A stretch of 20,059 nt of DNA from a virus. The notes under the pieces are model-generated. The model saw nothing but the letters and a program-made list of their open reading frames with translations, did not search any database and was not told the origin of the DNA. Below, one piece after another: positions 1 to 19,245 of this stretch. The stretch is taken from IMG/VR virus record IMGVR_UViG_3300030331_005568, positions 15,909-35,967 of that record; one strand, given 5' to 3'. Made by a program: the position numbers and the translations under genes. How positions within the stretch are numbered: the stretch's first letter is position 1; every line of letters begins with the position of its first letter.

Positions 1-1464
1 TTTATAGCAGGATTAACAAATGGTGTTCAAAATTTTGGTCATACATCCTTCAACAATAGTTATCATGGTTTAGTACATAGTTTCACTGGCTCAATGAGAA
101 TGAGTGGTTCAATCACTGCTCACTCAATAGGTCCTGGACGAATGGATGGTAGCACTGATTCAAGAATTGAGTTTGCTCTTCCCAATAGTTTTGATGATGG
201 GACTTTTAAATTCATATCAGCTACTCGTGAATTATTTAGAATATCAGAAAGTGCACATGTGATTGTTGGTGATGGTGGTGATGTTGACTTTCAAGTTAGA
301 ACGAATGGTGATGATAACGCTATATTTGTATTGGGTAGTACTGATAATGTTGGAATTGGAACAGCTACTCCAACTTCAAAATTACAAGTAAGTGGTGACA
401 TAACTGCGACAAACATAACCGCAAGTGGAAACATAAGTTCAAGTGGAACAATTATTTCAAATGCAACAAATACAATTGGAAATATAACCGCAAGTGGAAA
501 CATTAGTGCGAGTGGTGATATATTTGCTGATGATATAACTGTTACAGATATGGTTCAAGGAGGAAGATTATCATCACTCGGAAATATAACCGCAAGTGGA
601 AACATAAGTGCAAGTGGAATCATAACTGGTGAGGGATTAGTCATAAGTGATGACGCTTTAATCACAGATGACTTAGAAGTTCAAGGAAACATAAGTGGTT
701 CATCAATAACTGCTTCAACTGATTTCAAAATTGGTGGTACCGTTATAACTGATGGTCAAATTGCAGATGATGGTAATTTAACTATGGATTTGGCCGGTGA
801 TTTAGCAATCAATGTAGATGGTGGTGACGTATCAATTCTTGATAATACAACTCATATTGCCAACATAAATAGAACACAAGTTAGTGGTTCTGCATTATCA
901 ACTGGTTCATTTGGAGCTGGTTTCTTTAATAATAAAGTTGGTATTGGAACAACAAGTCCAGGCCAACATTTAGAAGTAGTTGGAAACATTAGTGCAAGTG
1001 GTGATATATTTGCTGATAGAGTTGGTATCGGAATACTTGGCACAAGTCCAGGTGAAGCATTAGAAGTAGTTGGAAACATAAGTGCTAGTGGAGTTGGTGA
1101 TTTTGGTAGTTTAGATGTAAATGGTGATGTGGATATTGATGGAACAACTCAATTAGACAACACAGTTATTACTGGTTCTTTAAAATTAAGTGGTGAAGTA
1201 AATATAGCTGGAAGTGGTCAAGGACACATAACTGCGAGTGGAAATGCACATGTGGGTGGTAAAATTAGCGCGACAGGTGACTTACTCATTAGTGGAGACA
1301 AAGTAGACTTCACATCTTTACCAACATCATCTGCAGGAGCAAACACTAAAGGATTATTTACACAACTTGGTTCTGAAATTTTAGGTAGTGGAAGTGCTGG
1401 TTCGGATGAAAGAGTTAAGTTTAATAATTTTTCTGCTTCAAAATTTGTATTAATTAAGGAGTAA
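1..1464 (+). CDS. Repetitive phage tail-fibre-like protein, 5' end outside window
   Basis: The reading frame is open from base 1, so the gene starts upstream; 487 codons are visible. An internal ATG at 94 is not a credible start because the same composition continues before it. The visible part begins with a beta-rich segment and then carries VGIG-type motifs (VGIGTATP, VGIGTTSPG, VGIGILGTSPG), each followed by a short (L/A)-x-V-x-G segment. Between them are many copies of a six-residue pattern close to I-T-A-S-G-N / I-S-A-S-G-D. Such VGIGT-SP plus repeat arrangements are common in trimeric phage fibres and in proteins upstream of peptidase S74 chaperone domains. No S74 domain is seen here; the protein ends FSASKFVLIKE. 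The likely role is a distal or side fibre contacting the host surface. Class is fairly sure; exact position on the virion is unknown. Confidence 0.8.
   Translation, partial: FIAGLTNGVQNFGHTSFNNSYHGLVHSFTGSMRMSGSITAHSIGPGRMDGSTDSRIEFALPNSFDDGTFKFISATRELFRISESAHVIVGDGGDVDFQVRTNGDDNAIFVLGSTDNVGIGTATPTSKLQVSGDITATNITASGNISSSGTIISNATNTIGNITASGNISASGDIFADDITVTDMVQGGRLSSLGNITASGNISASGIITGEGLVISDDALITDDLEVQGNISGSSITASTDFKIGGTVITDGQIADDGNLTMDLAGDLAINVDGGDVSILDNTTHIANINRTQVSGSALSTGSFGAGFFNNKVGIGTTSPGQHLEVVGNISASGDIFADRVGIGILGTSPGEALEVVGNISASGVGDFGSLDVNGDVDIDGTTQLDNTVITGSLKLSGEVNIAGSGQGHITASGNAHVGGKISATGDLLISGDKVDFTSLPTSSAGANTKGLFTQLGSEILGSGSAGSDERVKFNNFSASKFVLIKE
415..1250 (+). repeat. Dispersed in-frame direct repeats in the fibre gene
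   Basis: Several near-identical DNA repeats lie here. A 26-bp exact copy occurs at 478-503 and 580-605, offset 102 bp (34 codons). A 24-bp exact copy occurs at 415-438 and 586-609. A 36-bp copy with one mismatch occurs at 496-531 and 982-1017. Weaker copies sit near 1069-1090 and 1227-1245. All keep the frame and encode the GN-I-(T/S)-AS hexads. They could allow repeat number to change by recombination. Confidence 0.85.
937..1094 (+). repeat. Tandem duplicated VGIG unit in the fibre gene
   Basis: Two adjacent diverged copies, 937-1020 and 1021-1094, each encode VGIG, then TSPG, then a short linker, LEVVGNISASG and a tail. The DNA stretch tagaagtagttggaaacat is present in both. An older single relative (VGIGTATP...LQVSGDI) begins at 349. 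This is consistent with fibre growth by segmental duplication. Confidence 0.8.
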
Positions 1465-7969: not shown

Positions 7970-10900
7970 ATGAATGCTCAAAAAATAATAATACCTAATA
8001 AACCTAAATTTGGAGATTTAGGACAATACAATTTTCCAAAAGATTTAGGACCTGAGTTAAATCCTGGAGGTTCTATCACGACAGAAAATTGGCAATTAGC
8101 TAGTGTAGATGACCCACCCCAACTTGTTCTCCAAGATGGACTTGTCATATGGTCACCAGCTGTTCAAGATAATCCAGATGCTTATGCACAACTACGACTT
8201 AATCAAAATTTAGAATTAGGTGCTGTGTATCAAATAAGTTTAAATGTTGTATCCAATGATGGAACTTTATTTGATGAAACAAAAAATCCTAATAGAACTG
8301 TAAGTGGTAGAATCAATATAAATCAAAGTGGTGCTGGTGACCCAGCGCTTAATTATTATCCACAAGTTGTACCGCCTGGCGGAGTAGGGTTATTTACAAT
8401 AGATTTCATACCTTTAAATCAATCTGAACTTAGAATATATAATCCTCAATATAATAATAATATAGTTGTTGATTTTATCTCTATCAGAAAATATGAAACC
8501 GCACCTACAAATACTTTCATAACAACGATAAACAAACCTCGTTTTAGATCTTCACATATGAATTCTGGTGAAGGAGGAGCTCTTGAAGAAGCGATGGAAG
8601 GACGCCCAATTGGAGCCTATAATCCTGAAATAAATCAACTTATGGTAGAATACGCAGAACTTTTTGGAAAATCTAGCATTGGCACACAACTAATATCCAT
8701 TGAAACAAGAACAAAAAGTGCAGGTACAGATATTGTTCGTTGGGACACTTCTGATGATGAATGGTTGTACATTCCATCATCAAATAATAATGAAGAATAT
8801 ATAGAAAAAATGAAAATCGTGTTTAGTGATGATTTGTCAAATTATAATGAAATGGAGGAATTTTTAAGTAATGCTTATGCTTATGAAAATTCTAATAGTT
8901 TACCAGAAAATTGGGATAAATTTCAAAACAAAGATTTGTTTACTAAATCTGTTGGTGATACAACTAATGAAAAAATAATTGAAGCAAATCTTAAATTTCA
9001 AGGTGATACTTTTATTAAAATAGATAACTTAGAGATTAAAAACACTGGTGTTGGTGGAACAACTAAGAATAATCGTGTAAGGGTTTTTATATTTTCTCAA
9101 GAAGCATATGGTTCAGACCCAACAACTGATTCATACAATTCTATAGATGATAAATTAAATAATTCAATTGAAATATATGATGAAACATTTGGAAATAAAT
9201 CAGAGGGTAAAGATTTAGGTAATATGAGTGACATTGAAGGTATTCCAATTATATCTAATTTTGGTGTAGAATCTGATGCGCCACTTGTAGAATTTTTTGA
9301 GGGTGATAAAGAATTTGATTATGAAGAAGCATTTCAACTTTCATCTTCACCAGATCCAGATTTACAAACAAGTATTTTTAATCAAAATGCTTCAAATCCT
9401 ATATACATTATAGTTTGGATGAGGGGTGATAAAAAAGTTGGTTGGCCAGTAAACACAGATAAAAGAAAAAGAAAGTATTCAATATTTAGAATTAATAACG
9501 ATGAATTATTTGACAAAGTTGGTAATTCTTATCAAGGTAAAAGTACAGTATTTGATTTCACTTCAACAACAAAAACTAAAACCGGAGGTGGTGGAGGTGG
9601 GGGAGCTGAAAAAGCTGCTTGGTATGTATCATCACTTAAAGTTTCAATAAACACGGCAGCTGGAGTACAAAATCAATTTTCTGAAGCAGCTAATTATCAA
9701 GATGTAATCCCATTAGTTCAATCCAAAACTCCAATAAATGAAAATACACTTGAGACTTTTGATTGGTTGAGAATATTAAATCCAGCAAATCAACTTGATA
9801 ATTTACAAGCAGCTAATAATCAAGGTTCAAATATAGCTGCTGATAGACATCTTGATTTTTTTCCATTAACGACATTTGGTTACTCAGTAAACAACGATGA
9901 TGGTGATATTAATTTTGGAAATAATTTTGTCGATTTACAATCATATTATAAAGATTTTAATTCAATTATGAAAGCTTCTTCTCCATTAAATGTTACTTTT
10001 AAATTCGATATTGTTGATGTTGAAGGAAATGAATTACCACAATATGGTACAAGTGGGGAAACAGAATATTATTATTTTGTAATTGATTGGAATGATAAAG
10101 ATAATAAGTTTAAAACTGTTAATGATTATTTTGAAAGCAGGCCAATTGATAGATTTAGATATTTAGAAAAGCAAAGTCAGAATTTATATTTTATAACTAA
10201 AGTTGGTACTAATAAAACATTATCTAATGTTTATACCACTCCTGGAATTAAAAATGTAAAAATAATAATGTTTAGTGTATTTAAAGGAAATGGAGCTATA
10301 GCTTCACCTTCATTTGAAGTTGGTAGATGGAAACTTATTACATCAAGATTTTATTTAGATATACCACCAAATCAATATCCTGATTTTTCTGATGTTGGTG
10401 GTAGTAATTATACCACTTTACCTTGGCCATACACAACTGCAATAATAGGGGGTGTGGATAATAACTCAAAATATAAAATAAGTGTAAATAATACTTTATC
10501 TGGTGGTAAAATAGGAGAGTTGGATATAATTGATGAAAAACTTTTAGTTAATGATTTAGATAATGATGAAATGGGAAAATCAATACTTTCCTTTGATTTA
10601 GAACAATGTAGATATTTTGATAAACCATATGATATGAATCAACTTTTGAAAATAACTAATATTCAACCATTTAATTCTTCAGAATATTATATTGAAAATT
10701 TAGATAAATTTCCATTTTATTTTGAAGAGTTTGACGCAGTTCAAGATGGTATAATTGATTCATTAGATGTTGTTTATTGGATAAATGTTGATAGGCCTGA
10801 TATAGCAGAATATATAGGGGATTTATTGGGTGATGGTTCTTGGTTAAATTTACCACGATATTCTAATTTTAATAATTATAATGATAACACATATTGGAAT

Positions 10901-11176
10901 GGTTTAACACCTGAAACAACTTTTTCAGAGGAAAGTTCAGTCGGACAGATATTTATAAGTGATAATCAGGACAAAGACTTGAAACAAAGTTGTAAATTAG
11001 AATTAAATACTGGTAACTTGACTGGTAAATCTATTTCAGATACAAGTGGAAACTCAAACAAAGGATTATTAATAGGTGATTATAAAGTTAAAAAAGCCAG
11101 AAAAGGTGAACCAATGAGAAGAGATTCATTTATAAAAGTTCCTAAAAAAACAGGCAATAAAAAAGGAGCATTGTAA
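7970..11176 (+). CDS. Large virion protein: galactose-binding-like N-terminus, Gly hinge, dockerin-like module
   Basis: This is a 1068-residue protein. Residues 25-175 (LGPELNPGG ... NWQLAS ... YQISLNVVS ... VVDFISIRKYE) match the pattern of galactose-binding-like/CBM4_9 jelly rolls, which end in 'v-x-(I/F)-D-x-(I/V)-S-(I/V)-R/K'. Residues 176-535 are unrecognised. Seven consecutive glycines (539-545) form a likely hinge. Residues 675-790 look like a degenerate PKD-like block (YFVIDWNDKDN ... VYTTPGIKNVKIIMFSV), at the same relative place as the PKD domain of the preceding protein. Residues 823-1068 share landmarks with that protein's C-terminus (TAIIGG, GKSI, QLL, DTSGNSNKG, KKGAL). A dockerin-like block (FPFYFEEFDAVQDGIIDSLD, from 914) is inserted within this shared part. 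GGAG at 7956-7959, inside the preceding gene, precedes the ATG by ten bases. The stop TAA shares its last A with the ATG of the next gene. Role inferred: structural, possibly glycan-binding. Confidence 0.65.
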   Translation: MNAQKIIIPNKPKFGDLGQYNFPKDLGPELNPGGSITTENWQLASVDDPPQLVLQDGLVIWSPAVQDNPDAYAQLRLNQNLELGAVYQISLNVVSNDGTLFDETKNPNRTVSGRININQSGAGDPALNYYPQVVPPGGVGLFTIDFIPLNQSELRIYNPQYNNNIVVDFISIRKYETAPTNTFITTINKPRFRSSHMNSGEGGALEEAMEGRPIGAYNPEINQLMVEYAELFGKSSIGTQLISIETRTKSAGTDIVRWDTSDDEWLYIPSSNNNEEYIEKMKIVFSDDLSNYNEMEEFLSNAYAYENSNSLPENWDKFQNKDLFTKSVGDTTNEKIIEANLKFQGDTFIKIDNLEIKNTGVGGTTKNNRVRVFIFSQEAYGSDPTTDSYNSIDDKLNNSIEIYDETFGNKSEGKDLGNMSDIEGIPIISNFGVESDAPLVEFFEGDKEFDYEEAFQLSSSPDPDLQTSIFNQNASNPIYIIVWMRGDKKVGWPVNTDKRKRKYSIFRINNDELFDKVGNSYQGKSTVFDFTSTTKTKTGGGGGGGAEKAAWYVSSLKVSINTAAGVQNQFSEAANYQDVIPLVQSKTPINENTLETFDWLRILNPANQLDNLQAANNQGSNIAADRHLDFFPLTTFGYSVNNDDGDINFGNNFVDLQSYYKDFNSIMKASSPLNVTFKFDIVDVEGNELPQYGTSGETEYYYFVIDWNDKDNKFKTVNDYFESRPIDRFRYLEKQSQNLYFITKVGTNKTLSNVYTTPGIKNVKIIMFSVFKGNGAIASPSFEVGRWKLITSRFYLDIPPNQYPDFSDVGGSNYTTLPWPYTTAIIGGVDNNSKYKISVNNTLSGGKIGELDIIDEKLLVNDLDNDEMGKSILSFDLEQCRYFDKPYDMNQLLKITNIQPFNSSEYYIENLDKFPFYFEEFDAVQDGIIDSLDVVYWINVDRPDIAEYIGDLLGDGSWLNLPRYSNFNNYNDNTYWNGLTPETTFSEESSVGQIFISDNQDKDLKQSCKLELNTGNLTGKSISDTSGNSNKGLLIGDYKVKKARKGEPMRRDSFIKVPKKTGNKKGAL
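8042..8497 (+). other. Galactose-binding/CBM4_9-like domain segment
   Basis: It runs from LGPELNPGGSITTENWQLAS to VVDFISIRKYE, roughly 150 residues. The start 'G-x-E-L-x-x-x-G', the central YQISLNVVSNDG and the closing 'D-F-I-S-I-R-K' fit the jelly-roll fold seen in carbohydrate-binding modules. Binding residues cannot be assigned by eye. Confidence 0.5.
10712..10819 (+). other. Dockerin/EF-hand-like module, copy 1
   Basis: The translation reads FPFYFEEFDAVQDGIIDSLD and continues with a helix-like segment ending RPDIAEYI. The loop D-A-V-Q-D-G-I-I-D-S-L-D has Asp at positions 1, 5, 9 and 12 and Gly at 6, close to EF-hand/dockerin loops, but has Val at position 3. The same lead-in and trailing helix recur twice in the next gene. 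Confidence 0.6.
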
Positions 11177-11178
11177 TG
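11163..11178 (+). promoter_or_regulatory. Ribosome binding site inside the preceding gene, with TAATG stop/start overlap
   Basis: AAGGAG (11163-11168) lies in the codons for the terminal KKGAL of the 1068-aa protein. It is seven bases from the ATG at 11176, whose A is the last base of the upstream TAA. This arrangement favours translational coupling of the two large proteins. Confidence 0.75.
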
Positions 11179-14100
11179 CCTGATTTTGAATTTGAATTTA
11201 ATCAAAATGATAAAGACTTAATTGTTAGTCAACAAGATGCTGTATTTGGTGAATCTAATTCGGATTATATTCGTTTAACTATTTATCCATCTGAAGCGAT
11301 TGATAACATTGTAACACTTCAAGATAATAGTCAGGCTATATTTTATTCTTCTTTAAGTCCCACACCTTTTAACATCAATGTATCACCATTTGGAGTGGGT
11401 TTAGATGAACTTAAAATAAAAACAATTGGTGGCTCTTTTGCTGATATAAATGATTTTAAAATTTATAAAACAGATTCAAATGAAATTTATATAAAACCAA
11501 ATGAAATATTTAATAAATTTGAATTACCTGAAGGTGATTATAAAATACAAATAGATTTTTTAAATCAAGTAACACCAATTAAAATAGAAGACTTACCTTT
11601 TCCTGAATACTTACAAGAATTTGATATAGAACAATCAGGTAATAGTCAAAACACTATTGACGTACAAGATGCCGTACGGTGGACTGAAGTAAATAGATTA
11701 GATATAGCTGATTATATTGTAGGTAATGTGTTAGGTGGTGGTGTGGTTATACCCACTGCTATGTCAAAAGCACAATATTTAGAAACTTTACCATTTCCAC
11801 AATACTTTGAAGAATTTGATATTAACGCTGATGGTGATATAACTTCGATTGATGTAACGGATTGGGTAGCTGCAGGAAGAATTGACATTAGTGAACATCT
11901 CGAATCCATTATAGAAAATGGCACTGTAGATGAAATTCCAAAAGCTTCTGATACAGATGAAGAACTTGCAAGTCCTCCTGAAGCATATTTTCCTGATTTA
12001 GAAATTTTAGAATCTTATTCAGATGAAGAAATTGAAATAAGACCCATTGAAAATTTTTATGCAACTGAAGATTTATCAGCAGCAGGTCAACATTATCAAT
12101 TTATTATAAAACAAATTTCTACTTCAAGAAAAGAAATTAGATTAAAATTAATTAATACTAAAATTTTTAACGACTCATCAATAATAAGTCAATTAACAAC
12201 CGAATTTAATCAAGGATTGGATAAGTATCAATTCAAACATGTATTGAATACTGGAACTGGTGACCATATTCCAATAATGAATTATCAGTTTGATAAAATA
12301 ACTGATGGTCGTGATAATCAATCCATAATATTAAAATTATATGAACCATTACCAACTAGTGTTGGAAATTTATCAATGGTTACAATTGAGAAAGAAGTTT
12401 TAACAACACAAGTTCAAAACATATTTTATTTTTCTGATGTGCCTGATGTATTTTTCGGAGATGGTTTACAACCAGACAATCAAGAAAGATGGATTAATAA
12501 TGATGGGGAAATTCCTACTTTTCAAAGTTTAGATGAATTAGCCATATCAGCTTCCATAGGTGATATTGAAGTTGACTCTTTAGTTTCAGCGAGTGATTAT
12601 GGTTATCCTAATTTAAATACAGATTTTAATGAATATTCAAATCATACATTTTTTGGTTCTGCTAAAAAGAAATTAGAAAACTTTAAAACAAAAGTAGAAA
12701 CTATACAAAGTTATTATTCTGAAATATCAAGTTCACTAAATGTTTCAAGTTCAATTCAAGGTGATTCAACTTTTGTGATACAAAAAAGAGATGATTTATT
12801 TAAAAAAATAAATGAAGAGTTTAAAAACTTTACACCATATGAAAGATTTTTATATTTTGATGCTCAAACTGATTCAACAGCTTCAGCTCCAAGTTTAAAA
12901 AATTATGCGGACACATTACCAGTTACACTACAAGGCCATGTTGGTTCTTCTGTAGAGGGAATTGAATTAAACCAACATAATGGATTTAATGTTGTGTACA
13001 AACATTCATCTGAAAAAATATCAGGCACTCATAATCAATTCATAGATTTATTTACAGACAAATATAAAGTAGAAAACAAACCATTTTTTAATTACAGTAG
13101 TTCAATTTATTTATCATTTTTATTACAGGGTGATAGTGGTAGTTCATTAACTTGGGGAAATAGACAAAAACAACATAGTCCACCTTATCCTATAGATACT
13201 TTACACCAAAATACTATATCGAATCCTAACATAACAGGTAGTGAATATCAAAGATATATTTTTGAAGCTTCTCAATCTTACTTCATACCAAATACTAGAG
13301 ATACAGGTTCAGTTCATGATATGGCTGATTTGGATATAACTGATTTTGATGCAAACTCAACTAAAATTACTATTTTAAGTGGTAGTAATAAAACAGGTTC
13401 TTATCAAATTAAAGATTCAACTAATAAATATCCAACTACAGTAGTAAGTCATAGTGGTGTTCCATTTTCTGGATCAGTAATGCCAGCTGGAGAATTGTTT
13501 AGAATATTTACAAAAAACAATTTATCATCAAGTCTACTTGCTTATTATGACTATCAAGGTGTAACGATTGATGATAATAACTTTGAAGTATTTGATAGAA
13601 GTGGAAACAACAATACTTTAGAATTTGCAGGTAAGGGTGCTTCACCAGATGGATTTACATCAGCTTCAATAACAACTGGTGTTCAAGGTGGTGATGCTTT
13701 TGCATTTACAACAACTGGTAGTGAAGGTAATGCTCAAAGTGGAAGTATATTCTTAACAACAAACCAATCAGATGCTCCAATTGAAACCGCTCCAATATCA
13801 ATGTCTGCAGTTGCAGGTGATGCTGTTACTGGTTTCACTATGGCGACTTATTATAAATCAACTTCTACTAAAAATAATACAACCATACTGGCTATGGATA
13901 TTAAATCAGGTTCAACTGATGTTAATGGTTGGAGTCTTCAAAGATTAGGAAACACTATAGCAGGTGAGGTGACACGAGAAGGAGTGGATATATTAGATGA
14001 TGATACTTCAGAAGATGGATTGAAAACAGGTACTCTTACTCCAAGAGATGGTAACTTCCATCACATAGCTATGACTTATGATAATTTGACTGGTACGGGT

Positions 14101-17100
14101 TCAGTATTTTTTGATGGTGTGTTACAAAAACAAGGAAATGCAAGAGGACTTATAACTGGTAGTAATCAAATTTATAGATTAGTTGTTGGGAGTGGTGCTG
14201 GTGGGTCACAAGGTTTTGATGATGATACATTTGATGAAACAAGATTTTATACAAGAGCGTTAACACCTTCTGAAATAAATCAATTGTTTTTACATCCTGA
14301 TGGAAAAACAGAAACAAAAATCACAGATGTAAAGTTAACATTAAAAAATCCAACTGATGTTTTACCATTTGATACTATTTTTAAAACAACGTCTACTGAG
14401 TTTACAAATTGGTACAATAATGCATTAACGACAGCTGAAACATTTGACACTAACAATATACATTCATTTGAAAATAATTTACCTCTTTATATACAAGAAA
14501 GTTCCGAATATAAAGATATGAAAGATTTTTTAAATCTACAAGGTGAACAATATGATTTAATTAGAAATCATATTGATTCGTTAGGTACATTACATAAAAG
14601 AGGATATAAAAAAACCAATTCACCACCAGACAATACTTTACCAATGTTATTAAATAATATGGGGTATCAGGCTGTTAATCCATTTAGTGGTAGTTTAACA
14701 GATTCATTAGGTGCTTATTTAAGTGGTATAACTTCAATTGATGATATAAAAAATGCCACTTGGAGAAAAACACTTAATAATTTAATTTACATTTATAAAT
14801 CAAAAGGTACAAAAAATTCAGTAAGAGGATTACTAAATGTTTATGGTTATCCACCTGATGTGTTAAAATTTGAAGAGTTTGGTTCAACACCACAAGCAGA
14901 TGATGCGATTGTGTTTTCGGATGAAGTACCTGCCATTAATCCACCATCCAACAATTTTGATTTAAATTTAAATACGCAAACTGGAAGTTTTGGATTTACC
15001 AATCAAACTAAAAAACTTTATAGGTATATTTTTAATGCAAAATCTAATAGGATTTTAAATTTAGATTGGTGGATGGATGATGCGAATATCAATACATTTG
15101 AATTTGTATATAAACATGCACAAACAACAAATACACAAACAATAGTAAAATCAAGTGGTAGTGGTGCACAGTCTCTTTGGGATTTAAGATTAATACCTAG
15201 TTCAGATGGTTTAAGTTCATCCTTTGAATTTAGATTAAATAATTCACAAAGAGGTGGAACTGCTATTGCTAGTAGAGGTTTTTCAATGTCATTAGCATAC
15301 AATGAAATGACTGATGGTCAGTTATGGAATGTAATGATTCAAAGAATGACTGGAAGCACAGATGGTCCAGGAACAATTGAATATCGTCTACACTCCGCTT
15401 TACAACAAGAAAGTGCTATTGAAACGTATAGTTTTGTATCTATGTCAATTAGTGGTGGTTTAACGGGTGACTCGACAATTGAAGGTAAGGGATTTTTTGC
15501 TAATCAAAATTGGCAGTCAAGTGGTTCTAGAAATCATTCAGCATCAGCTAATCTATTTATTGGTGAAACATTTAGTGGTTCACTAGCAGAAATAAAAGGT
15601 TGGTCAACAGCTTTAAGTGTTTCTAAATTTAGACAAAGAACATTAAATAAGTTCTCAACTGCTGGAAATTCAATTTCATCACATTGTAAAGAATTAATTT
15701 ATCATTTTAAATTAAATGAAAACTATAATAGTTCATCAGTTTCAAGTTCTACGCAAAACTTATCAATTATTGATGCTTCACCAAATTTAATTTATTCAGA
15801 TTATTCATTTACAGCTTCTGGACAACTATTTGTAACTTCTTCAATTTATGGTTTTGATTTTATTAATGTGACAACATTAGCTTTACAAGATAATTTTAGT
15901 CAGAATAGTGACAATAATATTTTTATAAATCCAACTCAAACATTGGTTGGTAATTTAAATCCAAATCAATCAGCAGTTGACTCACTACAATCTTCGGTTG
16001 GAAAAAAAGAACAAATTAAAACATCACCTAAATTAGAACTATATCGTTCACCACAAACATTTATTGATAATTTTATTTTAGACAAAGTAAGTGGATTTAA
16101 TTTAGAAAAACTATATGGTAATCCAAAAGAATACTATTCTCAATCATATGATGAGTTCAATACTTTTAGAAAAGAGTTTTTTGATTGTTATGAATTTTCT
16201 ACAAATATAAATACTTTTATCAGAGCTCAAGAAAGTATGTTTAATGATTCAATCGCTGAGGGCGTTAAATCAATAGTTCCAGCTCGTTCTACATTTGGTG
16301 ATGAAAATTCAAACTTTGGTGTTGAAATAAAACCAACATTATTAGAAAAACAAAAATATCAAAATGAAAAACAATCAGTAGAAGCTAATCCAAATACAGC
16401 TGAAGGTATTTATAATGTAAATGTTAAATTATCAGATAAATTTGCTAATACAGAATTACTAACAATTTATGATTCTGTAAAAGAGGGTGAAGTATTAAAG
16501 CCAGTTTCAATAAGTAGTTCGCTAGAAGATACAATTATGATAACTTCTTCTATTAGTTTAGGTAATACATATCAGGCAAGCACTGGATATATTCACCCAC
16601 CATTTTTACAGCCAGGCGGATATTCCGCATCAATAGAAATTCCTAATCAAATTTCAGGCGGTTTGAGTTATTTACCAGCTGTAACTGGTTCTATTGGTAC
16701 TGATGATACAAAAACAGGTTCAATAGATTATGCTTCAATAGCGAATGAATCATATGAAAGTGTTCATAAAAATTGGGGAGTTGGTACAGATAATATATAT
16801 TTTATAAATTATTTTAACACTGGTTCAGATGGTACATTTAATACTTATCATATAGATACACGATTTGTATTTCATATGATTGGAGATACGGAATATTATT
16901 CAGCTTCATTTGGTAATAGTTCAGATTTTATGAATCCAAATAGATTTTATAATAGGTTATTAATTAATAATGATTTTCATTCTGATGTAAAATATGAATC
17001 ATTTATAACTGATAGCACTGGAGAGCAAGTTGGAAGAATGATAGGTAAAACAAGATATTTTACAACGGGTTCAACTGCACATGGAGAAATTATTTTACCA

Positions 17101-17316
17101 ACAAATCATGTTACTAAATTTAGTCAACCATTTAAAGAGCAAATGTTTAATGGAGCACAAAACACAAATCCAGGATTTTTAAACGTACAATATGAAGATT
17201 ATTCAAGCGCATCATTTTATTCAGTTACTGTAACTGGTGGTGAAAATCAAATTATTATTAAAGGTGATAGCTCTGCTGACTTGGATGATAATAGTAGAAT
17301 AATGTATGATGATTAA
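11176..17316 (+). CDS. Giant multidomain tail/fibre protein: dockerin-like pair, LamG, tail-protein-like core, second concanavalin-like domain
   Basis: This 2046-residue protein is the largest in the window. In order: two dockerin-like modules at 140-242; unassigned residues 270-490; a helical, probably coiled segment at 495-556 ending FTPYERFLYFDAQT; a LamG-like domain at about 787-1040 (LAYYDYQ ... FDRSGNNNTL ... FTMATYYKS ... FHHIAMTYDN ... GSVFFDGVL ... DETRFYTRALTPSEINQLF); a core at about 1105-1236 (MKDFLNLQGEQYDLIRNHID ... WRKTLNNLIYIYKSKGTKNS ... RGLLNVYGYPPDVL) like phage tail proteins that carry the 'K-x-K-G-T-x-x-S-(I/V)-x-x-L-(L/I)-x-x-(Y/F)-G' motif; a second concanavalin-like domain at about 1283-1490; and a C-terminal region (1669-2046) with VPARSTFGDE and GVEIKPTLLEKQKYQ. 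AAGGAG at 11163-11168, seven bases before ATG, and the TAATG overlap with the preceding gene fix the start. It is likely a baseplate-linked or fibre-scaffold protein; the tail link rests on the central motif. Confidence 0.7.
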   Translation: MPDFEFEFNQNDKDLIVSQQDAVFGESNSDYIRLTIYPSEAIDNIVTLQDNSQAIFYSSLSPTPFNINVSPFGVGLDELKIKTIGGSFADINDFKIYKTDSNEIYIKPNEIFNKFELPEGDYKIQIDFLNQVTPIKIEDLPFPEYLQEFDIEQSGNSQNTIDVQDAVRWTEVNRLDIADYIVGNVLGGGVVIPTAMSKAQYLETLPFPQYFEEFDINADGDITSIDVTDWVAAGRIDISEHLESIIENGTVDEIPKASDTDEELASPPEAYFPDLEILESYSDEEIEIRPIENFYATEDLSAAGQHYQFIIKQISTSRKEIRLKLINTKIFNDSSIISQLTTEFNQGLDKYQFKHVLNTGTGDHIPIMNYQFDKITDGRDNQSIILKLYEPLPTSVGNLSMVTIEKEVLTTQVQNIFYFSDVPDVFFGDGLQPDNQERWINNDGEIPTFQSLDELAISASIGDIEVDSLVSASDYGYPNLNTDFNEYSNHTFFGSAKKKLENFKTKVETIQSYYSEISSSLNVSSSIQGDSTFVIQKRDDLFKKINEEFKNFTPYERFLYFDAQTDSTASAPSLKNYADTLPVTLQGHVGSSVEGIELNQHNGFNVVYKHSSEKISGTHNQFIDLFTDKYKVENKPFFNYSSSIYLSFLLQGDSGSSLTWGNRQKQHSPPYPIDTLHQNTISNPNITGSEYQRYIFEASQSYFIPNTRDTGSVHDMADLDITDFDANSTKITILSGSNKTGSYQIKDSTNKYPTTVVSHSGVPFSGSVMPAGELFRIFTKNNLSSSLLAYYDYQGVTIDDNNFEVFDRSGNNNTLEFAGKGASPDGFTSASITTGVQGGDAFAFTTTGSEGNAQSGSIFLTTNQSDAPIETAPISMSAVAGDAVTGFTMATYYKSTSTKNNTTILAMDIKSGSTDVNGWSLQRLGNTIAGEVTREGVDILDDDTSEDGLKTGTLTPRDGNFHHIAMTYDNLTGTGSVFFDGVLQKQGNARGLITGSNQIYRLVVGSGAGGSQGFDDDTFDETRFYTRALTPSEINQLFLHPDGKTETKITDVKLTLKNPTDVLPFDTIFKTTSTEFTNWYNNALTTAETFDTNNIHSFENNLPLYIQESSEYKDMKDFLNLQGEQYDLIRNHIDSLGTLHKRGYKKTNSPPDNTLPMLLNNMGYQAVNPFSGSLTDSLGAYLSGITSIDDIKNATWRKTLNNLIYIYKSKGTKNSVRGLLNVYGYPPDVLKFEEFGSTPQADDAIVFSDEVPAINPPSNNFDLNLNTQTGSFGFTNQTKKLYRYIFNAKSNRILNLDWWMDDANINTFEFVYKHAQTTNTQTIVKSSGSGAQSLWDLRLIPSSDGLSSSFEFRLNNSQRGGTAIASRGFSMSLAYNEMTDGQLWNVMIQRMTGSTDGPGTIEYRLHSALQQESAIETYSFVSMSISGGLTGDSTIEGKGFFANQNWQSSGSRNHSASANLFIGETFSGSLAEIKGWSTALSVSKFRQRTLNKFSTAGNSISSHCKELIYHFKLNENYNSSSVSSSTQNLSIIDASPNLIYSDYSFTASGQLFVTSSIYGFDFINVTTLALQDNFSQNSDNNIFINPTQTLVGNLNPNQSAVDSLQSSVGKKEQIKTSPKLELYRSPQTFIDNFILDKVSGFNLEKLYGNPKEYYSQSYDEFNTFRKEFFDCYEFSTNINTFIRAQESMFNDSIAEGVKSIVPARSTFGDENSNFGVEIKPTLLEKQKYQNEKQSVEANPNTAEGIYNVNVKLSDKFANTELLTIYDSVKEGEVLKPVSISSSLEDTIMITSSISLGNTYQASTGYIHPPFLQPGGYSASIEIPNQISGGLSYLPAVTGSIGTDDTKTGSIDYASIANESYESVHKNWGVGTDNIYFINYFNTGSDGTFNTYHIDTRFVFHMIGDTEYYSASFGNSSDFMNPNRFYNRLLINNDFHSDVKYESFITDSTGEQVGRMIGKTRYFTTGSTAHGEIILPTNHVTKFSQPFKEQMFNGAQNTNPGFLNVQYEDYSSASFYSVTVTGGENQIIIKGDSSADLDDNSRIMYDD
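11593..11901 (+). other. Two dockerin/EF-hand-like modules, copies 2 and 3
   Basis: Copy 2 reads LPFPEYLQEFDIEQSG, followed by IDVQDAVRW and RLDIADYI. Its loop has one extra residue and Ser in place of the usual Asp at position 5, so it is degenerate. Copy 3 reads LPFPQYFEEFDINADG, followed by DITSIDVTDW and GRIDISEHL. Its loop D-I-N-A-D-G-D-I-T-S-I-D is a canonical EF-hand/dockerin loop (1, 3, 5, 6, 8, 9, 12 all satisfied). A spacer rich in Gly/Val separates the copies (residues 183-200). Confidence 0.65.
13534..14295 (+). other. LamG/concanavalin-like domain segment
   Basis: Residues 787-1040 of the 2046-aa protein show LAYYDYQ, FDRSGNNNTLEF, FTMATYYKS, WSLQRLG, NFHHIAMTYDN, GSVFFDGVLQ and DETRFYTRALTPSEINQLF. 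This is the usual strand order of Laminin_G_3-type domains, including the 'D-E-(V/T)-R-x-Y-x-R-A-L-(T/S)-x-x-E-I' ending. Ligand is unknown. Confidence 0.85.
14488..14883 (+). other. Tail-protein-like core segment
   Basis: Residues 1105-1236 contain YIQESSEYKDMKDFLNLQGE, LPMLLNNMGY and WRKTLNNLIYIYKSKGTKNS, then VRGLLNVYGYPPDVL. A helical segment followed by 'Y-K-S-K-G-T-x-x-S-(I/V)-x-x-L-(I/L)' and a Tyr-Gly-Tyr/Ile-Pro turn is common in tail proteins of the P2 gpI kind and in large marine-phage tail proteins. The assignment is by motif memory only. Confidence 0.5.
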
Positions 17317-17396: not shown

Positions 17397-18101
17397 ATGG
17401 GATATTTAGACAATACATCAATTACAGTTGATGCTGTTTTAACAAAAAAAGGAAGAGAAATTTTAAAAGATGGTGGAAGTTTGAATATAACTTCTTTTAC
17501 ACTTTCTGACACGGGAGTGGATTATACACTTTGGAATCCAGACCATCCAAGTGGTTCAGCTTTCTATGGTGAAGCAATAGAAAATTTACCTATGTTAGAA
17601 GCCAGTGTTCACGCTGAATATAATTTAAGAAATAGACTAGTTAGTTTAAATCAGAATACAATAGCAGTTCCTGCTTTAGTATTGGGTAATTTAGATACGG
17701 CTGGTGGTACGGTTTTAACATTTAATGAAGGTGATGAAAATAGTGGAACTATAAATGTTGAATTAGTTGGATATTCATCAAATCAAACTATTGGTGATAA
17801 TGGATTTCCATATTATTTTGTTATACAAGATCCATCAATTATATCAACTAATGCTAGTTTAATGAATGGATTAAGTGGAACAAGTAGACAATTTTTACAA
17901 GAACAAGATATTCCATTCGCTCAACAATATGGATTTAATGGAACTAGTTTTCAAATAACACCAATTCAGCAAGATATTGTTGGTAAATCTACAAATGTGT
18001 ATGTAGTTCACGTTGAAACTGGAGCTTACAATTCATTTACCGTAACAAATAACATTACTAAGAACCAGAGAGCTGTATTATCAACTGGTGGTGCTGGATA
18101 A
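17397..18101 (+). CDS. Conserved phage virion-type protein of unknown function (234 aa)
   Basis: The protein begins MGYLDNTSITVDAVLTKKGR and continues EILKDGG, then ITSFTLSDTGVDYTLWNPDHPSG and a later EAIENLPMLEA. I recognise this opening as a recurrent type in uncultured marine phages, where it lies beside structural genes, but I cannot name a characterised homologue. The pattern 'T-V-D-A-V-L-T-K-K-G-R-E' resembles proteins beginning with a helix that caps an assembly, followed by beta-rich sequence. There is no signal peptide, membrane segment or catalytic motif. AGGAG six bases upstream fixes the start. It is the first gene after the 80-nt gap and may head a separate transcription unit with the two following genes. 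Role inferred: minor structural protein. Confidence 0.75.
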   Translation: MGYLDNTSITVDAVLTKKGREILKDGGSLNITSFTLSDTGVDYTLWNPDHPSGSAFYGEAIENLPMLEASVHAEYNLRNRLVSLNQNTIAVPALVLGNLDTAGGTVLTFNEGDENSGTINVELVGYSSNQTIGDNGFPYYFVIQDPSIISTNASLMNGLSGTSRQFLQEQDIPFAQQYGFNGTSFQITPIQQDIVGKSTNVYVVHVETGAYNSFTVTNNITKNQRAVLSTGGAG

Positions 18102-18123
18102 TCATAAATTAGGAGATTTATAA

Positions 18124-19245
18124 ATGGCTATAGCAGGAGGAAACATAGTATTAGATTCAACGGAGGGTATGGATAAAGTTACTCAGACTGAAAAAGTAAC
18201 AAGTCCTTATTTTTCTGATGGTACAACAATACTTACACAAGGTGGAATTATATCAACATCACTTAGTGATACAAATGAAAAATATTTTTTTGGAATATCA
18301 AAAACTGGATCTGCAACTACTGAAGAGTTTAATGTTACATTTGGAAGTACAAATGGGTTTGGTGCTAATGTTGAAGCAAATACTAAATCAGAAACAGAGG
18401 TTATTTATAAACAATACGCTAATTTACTTCTGGCTCCTACAGAAGTAACTGGTGGATTTAAAATAGCTATAGGTGGTTCTGATCCTGCTAAAGGTAATGA
18501 TGCTGGAGTATTAACTGGAAAAGATACTGAAATATTTGTTCTTTCTGCTAGACGTTCTAATATGAAAGATAGATTGAATAAAGGAACTTGGGAAATTAGA
18601 CTTGGAGGAACTAGTGGAACATTAACACCAGCAGGATTAAGTTTAATAGATGATAGTAGTACAACTGAACCAACTGCGACACCTGTTGGTGATAGATACA
18701 ATATTGTTAGTGGTACAGCTGCGGCTGGAGTATTCACATCCTCAAAACACTATGGTCATTTTTATCCTGATATGGGAATATTAGTATTTAGTGCAGCTGA
18801 ATTATCCGCGTCAATACCTGGTCAAGCTAATATGCCTGCGACAGCAACAATATTTAATTCAGGTTCTCAAGGGGGATTTGACTATTTAAAAACAACAAAC
18901 TTGGATTCAAAACCAGCTCTAAGATTTATAAATAGTTTAGTAACAAGCTCAGCTGGAGGTATACTTCCAGGACTAACATTTAGAGATGAAGAGGACCAAG
19001 TAAGTGCTCAATATTTTTGTAGAGTTAGAAGTGGACAAATGAATTTTTCAAATAATCCAACATTTGTATCGGGTTCTTTAAATGAATTAAGACAATCTAC
19101 AATGAAGGGTAATCCAAATACATTTATTTCATCAGTTCAATTATACAATGATGCTGGTGATATGGTTGCAGTTGGTAATCTTTCAACACCATTAAAGAAA
19201 AACTTTAGTTCAGAAGCTACAATAAAAGTTAAATTAACTTATTAA
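18124..19245 (+). CDS. Beta-rich phage structural protein, tandem paralogue of the following gene
   Basis: This is a 373-residue protein, MAIAGGNIVLDSTEGMDKVT onward. Landmarks are VIYKQYANLLL (94-103), IFVLSARRSNMKDRLNKGTW (137-156), YGHFYPDMGILVFSA (210-224), LTFRDEEDQVSAQYFCRVRS (284-303), MNFSNNPTF and ISSVQLYNDAGDMVAVGNLS (335-354), ending IKVKLTY. The order and spacing of the last five landmarks are mirrored in the next, incomplete gene. Proteins of this type recur in marine phage structural regions, to my recollection, without known function. AGGAG at 18111-18115, eight bases before the ATG, fixes the start. No enzymatic motif. Inferred to be a virion component. Confidence 0.75.
   Translation: MAIAGGNIVLDSTEGMDKVTQTEKVTSPYFSDGTTILTQGGIISTSLSDTNEKYFFGISKTGSATTEEFNVTFGSTNGFGANVEANTKSETEVIYKQYANLLLAPTEVTGGFKIAIGGSDPAKGNDAGVLTGKDTEIFVLSARRSNMKDRLNKGTWEIRLGGTSGTLTPAGLSLIDDSSTTEPTATPVGDRYNIVSGTAAAGVFTSSKHYGHFYPDMGILVFSAAELSASIPGQANMPATATIFNSGSQGGFDYLKTTNLDSKPALRFINSLVTSSAGGILPGLTFRDEEDQVSAQYFCRVRSGQMNFSNNPTFVSGSLNELRQSTMKGNPNTFISSVQLYNDAGDMVAVGNLSTPLKKNFSSEATIKVKLTY

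Follow-up and report, generated by a model that had tools for sequence, protein, structure and literature searches.

Recombination between conserved motifs in phage fibre genes is known, and the case described here belongs there. Tetart et al. reportedly described in 1998 such recombination in the fibre locus of T-even phages, where short conserved motifs inside the tail-fibre gene act as points of segment exchange. The gene described below resembles that locus in this respect. It differs in that its motif codes for a six-residue unit (hexad) and is present in up to about 25 copies per gene, in that change is confined to the middle of the gene and spares its two ends, and in that the fibre has no sequence match to a T4 fibre family.

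In lytic Escherichia coli phages, DNA motifs around the receptor-binding domain are conserved across genera and have been proposed as recombination hot spots (PMC10408124). In that study, motifs of 44, 95 and 20 nt flank one domain, and its authors found the presence of motifs to be uncorrelated with the number of recombination events. The likeness lies in conserved DNA motifs as possible sites for exchange of receptor-binding modules; the difference is that here the motif lies inside the fibre and breakpoints are enriched at the motif.

New here are the many motif copies in one gene, the hexad-coding word, the conserved ends on both sides and a test on breakpoints. Our literature search, which left most subscription journals outside, found no description of such hexad-coding joints. 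The case bears on the old question of how phages can remodel their receptor-binding fibres and still keep the reading frame intact: a presumed length-variable repeat would become a module-exchange system, and a multi-copy, in-frame DNA joint common to many uncultured viruses, at which mosaic breakpoints lie, leads to the prediction that synonymous recoding of the hexads lowers exchange.

The fibre-like gene and its hexads

The window, by which we mean the whole 20,059-nucleotide stretch analysed, comprises bases 15,909–35,967 of a 35,967-base virus record (IMG/VR record IMGVR_UViG_3300030331_005568); coordinates on the record are written L003. Its first open reading frame (ORF) had been taken in a sequence-only reading for a fibre gene. 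It does belong to a fibre-like gene in a tail/baseplate operon but is only the 3′ third of it (Table 1). The whole gene, L003:13182–17372, starts 2.7 kb upstream of the window and has ~1,396 aa, a length that holds only if the frame is continuous across a run of 10 Ns directly preceding the window start; because of this run, continuity of the frame upstream of the window is assumed. In the close relative L005 the fibre is a single unbroken ORF of 1,272 aa with the same two ends.

The gene takes a baseplate/tail operon position, directly 3′ of genes for a gp25-like protein (Pfam GPW_gp25, E 2.4e-12) and a gp6-like wedge protein (Baseplate_J, E 1.4e-5; PHROG baseplate wedge, 6.8e-25). Neither part of it (window 1–1461; L003 13182–15896) matched a Pfam family at cut-off, or the Peptidase_S74 domain or the Hexapep model at E ≤ 0.1. 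Against PHROGs it has weak matches at best (tail protein, E 0.003; minor tail protein, E 0.012), and the window fibre had no match in a collection of 50,697 phage records at E 1e-5 or 1e-2. Short stretches of a related fibre, that of L006, match by tblastn proteins of the marine phages and cyanophages CRP-212, Melnitz, S-TIM5 and P-HM1, some of which are annotated as tail fibre or baseplate, over 2–4% of the L006 query. The window gene is probably the fibre gene of an uncultured myovirus, its product long, tail- or baseplate-attached, modular and trimeric.

Among 81 loci that have the gene lying downstream of the fibre in the window, the gp6-like gene is directly adjacent to it, with no fibre between, in 76; the exceptions are L003, L005, L006, L007 and L081. 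The fibre is therefore an accessory gene in this slot. Hexad ORFs of other phages adjoin major head, PhoH or tail-sheath genes (three of the nine neighbours tested).

Near-identical in-frame DNA repeats coding for six-residue units are present as the sequence-only reading described them. The longest is a 36-bp repeat (496/982) with a single mismatch; the exact repeats have 26 bp (478/580), 24 bp (415/586), 21 bp (511/997) and 20 bp (970/1060; 415/484). All spacings are divisible by 3, all repeats are in frame, and they code for hexads of the I-T-A-S-G-N/I-S-A-S-G-x type (ITASGN/ISASGD). The flanks of the repeat copies agree at 14–21 of 45 positions; being so unlike, they show that no larger unit was duplicated, and a tandem 34-codon unit was ruled out on the same ground. 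In the part of the gene upstream of the window, a 187-nt segment is present twice at 78% identity (L003:14001–14187 and 14604–14790).

Nine hexads were found in the window, at 415, 433, 484, 502, 586, 604, 988, 1078 and 1228. The earlier description of a hexad-repeat fibre shaft was right about the hexads and overstated the shaft: they are isolated sites of one or two units that make up 54 of the 279 residues of aa 139–417, and the hydrophobic autocorrelation at lag 6 is only 0.21. Left-handed beta-helices of the LpxA hexapeptide-repeat type have long tandem hexads and a Hexapep match, whereas the hexads of the window are isolated or paired and have none.

Table 1. Features of the fibre-like gene and its slot (window coordinates unless marked L003)
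Position	Strand	Feature	Remarks
1..1464	+	Fibre-like gene, C-terminal 487 aa and stop codon	Rest of the gene lies upstream
1..1256	+	Part of the variable middle	No collinear counterpart in close relative L005; middle begins at L003:13946
349..414	+	VGIG-x-KLxVxG element	Directly precedes the first hexad; related by profile to Bdellovibrio MAT fibres
415..450	+	Hexad pair ITASGN-ISSSGT
484..519	+	Hexad pair ITASGN-ISASGD	Inside the 26-bp and 36-bp repeats
586..621	+	Hexad pair ITASGN-ISASGI	Inside the 24-bp and 26-bp repeats
937..1005	+	VGIGTTSP...LEVVGN element	Hexad ISASGD at 988
1021..1095	+	VGIGILGTSP...LEVVGN element	Hexad ISASGV at 1078
1104..1265	+	Module at a different position in L087	82% DNA identity; first part also resembles a stretch of L090
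1222..1244	+	23-bp exact repeat GGACACATAACTGCGAGTGGAAA	Hexad ITASGN at 1228; twin at L003:13914, close to the 5′ border of the variable middle
1256..1461	+	Conserved C-terminal end	68 aa, 97% identical to L005; start of renewed homology
1464-1467 and L003:13109-13182		Gene slot of the fibre	Between the gp6-like wedge gene and the next gene

Module borders between related alleles

Both ends of the gene are conserved; its middle consists of modules, and close relatives differ in what these modules contain, in how many there are and in how they are ordered. The fibres of L003 and L005 are homologous over the N-terminal ~250 aa and the C-terminal 68 aa, with DNA flanks ~91–93% identical (93% up to L003:13946; from L003:17164, window 1256, 91%). 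The ~3.2 kb between these points (L003 13946–17164) is not collinear with L005 and constitutes a replaced middle; the fibre gene differs greatly between relatives. The alleles switch at hexads or right beside them: the 5′ switch, at L003:13946, lies within or just after the hexad-coding GHITASGNI.

A second relative, L087, follows L003 at 95.8% DNA identity to L003:14184, which is inside a hexad. Beyond this point it has the module that the window gene carries near its 3′ end (Table 1), fused at GHITASGN to a second copy (86%) of the segment that follows the first GHITASGN. One border, L003:14600/L087:6487, is not at a hexad, the distances being 30 and 78 nt. A scan for a second close allele of window 1–1239 found none, giving only L090, over 51 residues.

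The hexad at the 5′ edge in L003 is worded like the one at the 3′ edge (CAC ATA ACT GCG AGT GGA) and unlike its orthologues in L087 and L005, and its flanks are well conserved. It is a conversion-like patch, compatible with conversion between hexads. Of the ongoing conversion proposed in the sequence-only reading, this single compatible patch is what was found.

Module borders fall at hexads far more often than chance. The breakpoint set comprised 151 fibre-like ORFs (at least 250 aa and at least three hexads) from 116 loci, six cellular-genome loci included; L001, L002, L004, L088, L089 and L153 were excluded from the ORF sets as duplicates or pieces. In these data, whose breakpoints are not all independent (L006/L007, L093/L096/L149), 36 of 92 mosaic breakpoint positions lie within 15 nt of a hexad, where random positions in the same ORFs gave 11.1 and the highest of 500 shuffles 21.

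When allele pairs are compared, 23 of 53 breakpoints are at hexads on either side (null mean 12.4), a count not beyond all 1000 shuffles, the highest of which gave 24. The repetitive pair L136–L183, with 14 breakpoints, was set aside in one of two counts, after the data had been seen; without it 23 of 39 breakpoints are at hexads on either side (null 10.5, highest 20). Hexads are present on both sides at 21 of the 53, against a null of 1.1 that is too lenient because it treats the two alleles as independent. Control sites showed no clear excess on either side of the 53 breakpoints (VGIG, 3 vs 1.5; TGSF, 1 vs 2.4; GD[VIL], 5 vs 5.5). A replication planned beforehand, using a second pattern, yielded 18 breakpoints with at least one new ORF; 11 of these are at hexads on either side (null 4.0, highest of 1000 being 10) and 9 at hexads on both sides (null 0.3).

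From these comparisons we consider it probable that the hexads act as short shared joints, and that whole fibre segments are swapped between related viruses, rather than forming a tract that grows and shrinks. Through their shared wording the hexads would offer short stretches of homologous DNA in frame, where two phages in the same cell could recombine, by a homologous or homology-assisted route, and join modules with the frame kept. Such exchange would in turn keep the hexads alike within a common gene pool, and the fibre would change its length and exposed surfaces, and perhaps its host contacts, via module swaps rather than by gain or loss of single hexads. We infer both the exchange mechanism and any effect on host range. 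Crossovers at hexads are suggested by comparative patterns, no crossover having been observed, and the clustering of breakpoints could alternatively arise if hexads are tolerant linkers where any join survives.

Codon wording of the hexads and its explanations

Hexads share their DNA wording, synonymous codons included, across many phages; the sequence outside the hexads does not. The 19 hexads of the complete gene have a codon identity of 0.613. Redrawing their codons from the gene's own usage outside hexads gives 0.386 (sd 0.032), and none of 1000 draws reached the observed value. The suggestion that the DNA identity goes beyond codon bias was therefore borne out. Four other fibre genes have the same excess (observed/expected: L005, 0.726/0.414; L087, 0.704/0.415; L006, 0.748/0.400; L090, 0.904/0.402; each 0/1000), so the identity is real and not special to the window gene.

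Searching IMG/VR for the codon-agnostic pattern ITASGNISASG gave at least 119 stretches in at least 80 loci, and searching 84,980 cellular genomes gave six stretches, five of them with other codons or another peptide and the sixth, on a contig binned as Candidatus Pelagibacter, with window-like wording. Counts were based on 106 of 116 motif matches, in 71 of the 80 listed viral loci, after dropping 10 with another peptide; L171–L209 were not used. Among the matches listed, codon identity between the 71 loci is 0.618 vs 0.404, and between 29 clusters, each represented by one locus per group sharing a match of at least 300 bp, it is 0.562 vs 0.399 (highest of 300 draws, 0.460). The serine codons also speak for exchange at shared joints: AGT encodes the last serine in 358 of the 412 ISASG copies of 132 ORFs, the serine in 92 of 364 ITASG copies and that in 38 of 99 non-hexad ASG, and serine before glycine outside hexads is AGT in 607 of 1704. 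Neither codon preference nor neighbour context can produce this pattern.

In 14 independent new clusters the wording is weaker: AGT at the two serines has frequencies of 0.64 and 0.57 vs 0.21 expected, ATA 0.64 vs 0.33 and GCA 0.43 vs 0.43, and all four consensus codons are present in 4 of 14 vs 0.19 expected. Replication in 39 further loci of the first scan gave only two usable ORFs, too few. In phage isolates, the DNA search for the motif returned short chance-like matches only, and the peptide search matches at E 1 or worse.

Two of the cellular entries call for a remark. The Candidatus Pelagibacter contig, L212 (from GTDB), on which the window-like wording is part of a hexad ORF, has 1,279 bp in common with IMG/VR contig L161 at 100%; either the bin contains a phage contig or the match hints at the host. 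L213, from a Sulfurimonas MAG, has at about 300–439 tandem 18-bp units reading NITACG in a short ORF, which are probably a chance relative of the search pattern.

The foremost rival to exchange at shared joints holds that hexads are structural linkers only, that illegitimate joins occur anywhere with only those at linkers folding as a trimer, and that the shared codons are leftovers of common descent. As linkers would, hexads adjoin VGIG-KLxVxG elements, and of the 275 occurrences of the exact 14-mer ATAAGTGCAAGTGG, all but one (274) are read as ISAS within an ORF of 80 aa or longer. Grouping by hexad-masked protein similarity leaves only three clusters (69, 1 and 1) of the 71 listed loci, so the fibre ORFs are broadly related, and the linking of 69 of the 71 means that shared descent explains part of the wording. 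Plain descent, however, should preserve the codons of other words too, and the control words VGIGT and TGSFG (14 loci each) hardly do, with little codon excess (z 2.1 and 1.0). Wobble conservation, moreover, drops to background within about two codons of the motif, and the patch in L003 is worded like a distant hexad. Against exchange at shared joints, the hexad words GHITAS and HITASG have a small excess, of 0.12–0.16. We regard the linker explanation as unlikely.

Slightly less likely again, in our judgement, is that the hexad DNA is a dedicated combinatorial joint, a short in-frame word present many times over in the fibre genes of numerous uncultured viruses, its wording maintained because it promotes exchange, with modules drawn in any order and number from a common pool.

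The wording might instead be under direct selection at the DNA or RNA level, whether because it sets the codon rhythm during folding, carries an mRNA signal or is recognised by a dedicated recombinase. For this speaks the serine codon of A-S-G, which, inside this one tripeptide, depends on position: among the listed loci it is TCA in hexad 1 (44 of 71) and AGT in hexad 2 (64 of 71). ISSSG is mostly worded AGT-TCA-AGT. Against such selection, the single copy of ATAAGTGCAAGTGG outside a long ORF lies in a shorter frame and still codes for ISASG, so there is no out-of-frame use of the DNA; other codons are frequent in independent clusters, 10 of the 14 being without the full consensus; and all but one of the six cellular-genome matches have another wording or peptide. 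We find it improbable.

Recent duplication or ongoing conversion inside the gene, with fibre length shifting by loss and gain of repeats, is the least probable explanation, and a very doubtful one: three neighbouring copies (415, 484 and 586) have the rarer ACC codon in common and L003 has its one conversion-like patch, but copies with ACC are present also in L087, L006, L090 and L212, repeat flanks are not duplicated, adjacent copies are no more alike than far ones, and aligned alleles have no hexad indels. Within a gene, identity of adjacent vs distant copies is 0.667 vs 0.729 for ISASG and 0.628 vs 0.641 for ITASG; copies from different loci have 0.641 and 0.501, respectively. With nearby copies no more alike than distant ones and with unmatched flanks, recent tandem duplication is not needed, and the local duplication that the sequence-only reading had proposed is unsupported, on both counts and given the presence of the same wording in other phages.

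The same reading suggested that fibre length could vary as repeats are lost and gained. None of 25 aligned stretches (at least 600 bp, at least 93% identical) among fibre ORFs has an indel that adds or removes a hexad, which speaks against this as a source of variation; the test is weak because many pairs are identical contigs or the same virus, and larger indels would split alignments and so go uncounted among the 25. Two of the 25 rows share one 3-nt difference (L006/L007 family), and one pair differs in having 7 vs 8 hexads without a change in length.

Predicted fold and other genes of the window

A profile of 18 VGIG-hexad rows matches Bdellovibrio MAT fibres over about 50 residues (PDB 8ol4, E 3.2e-5; 8ond, E 0.0013). 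In MATs, adhesive domains sit on intertwined trimeric beta-prisms (PMC10769870). The window fibre is like them in its VGIG-KLxVxG element, which by the profile match is homologous to a trimer-forming element of the MAT superfamily, and in its modular make-up. It differs in that MATs are surface fibres of bacteria, classified by whether they have an S74 domain, whereas the window fibre is without that domain and matches over these residues only.

Two single-chain models have middling confidence (mean pLDDT 73.4 and 71.6), and the last ~50 residues of the conserved 68-aa C-terminal end have low confidence. At E ≤ 0.001 Foldseek found nothing similar to model 1, and for model 2 it returned no match of any kind. 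With VIA-align, the best match of model 1 is the R2 pyocin spike at Z 4.2, which is below the informative level of the tool and too low for a fold claim; also listed are several spikes and fibres of phages that are trimeric, as well as three MAT entries at Z 2.1–2.3. The models being middling and without a significant fold match, the trimeric beta-structured shaft is putative.

Elsewhere in the window, two adjacent genes at 17397–19242 have no Pfam or PHROGs match at E 0.1. A 2,046-aa gene at 11176–17316 has a Laminin_G_3 domain (aa 884–1035, E 3.8e-12) and weak dockerin-like repeats (Dockerin_1, E 0.1, below cut-off), and the gene at 7970–11176 has a similar acidic segment near its C-terminus.
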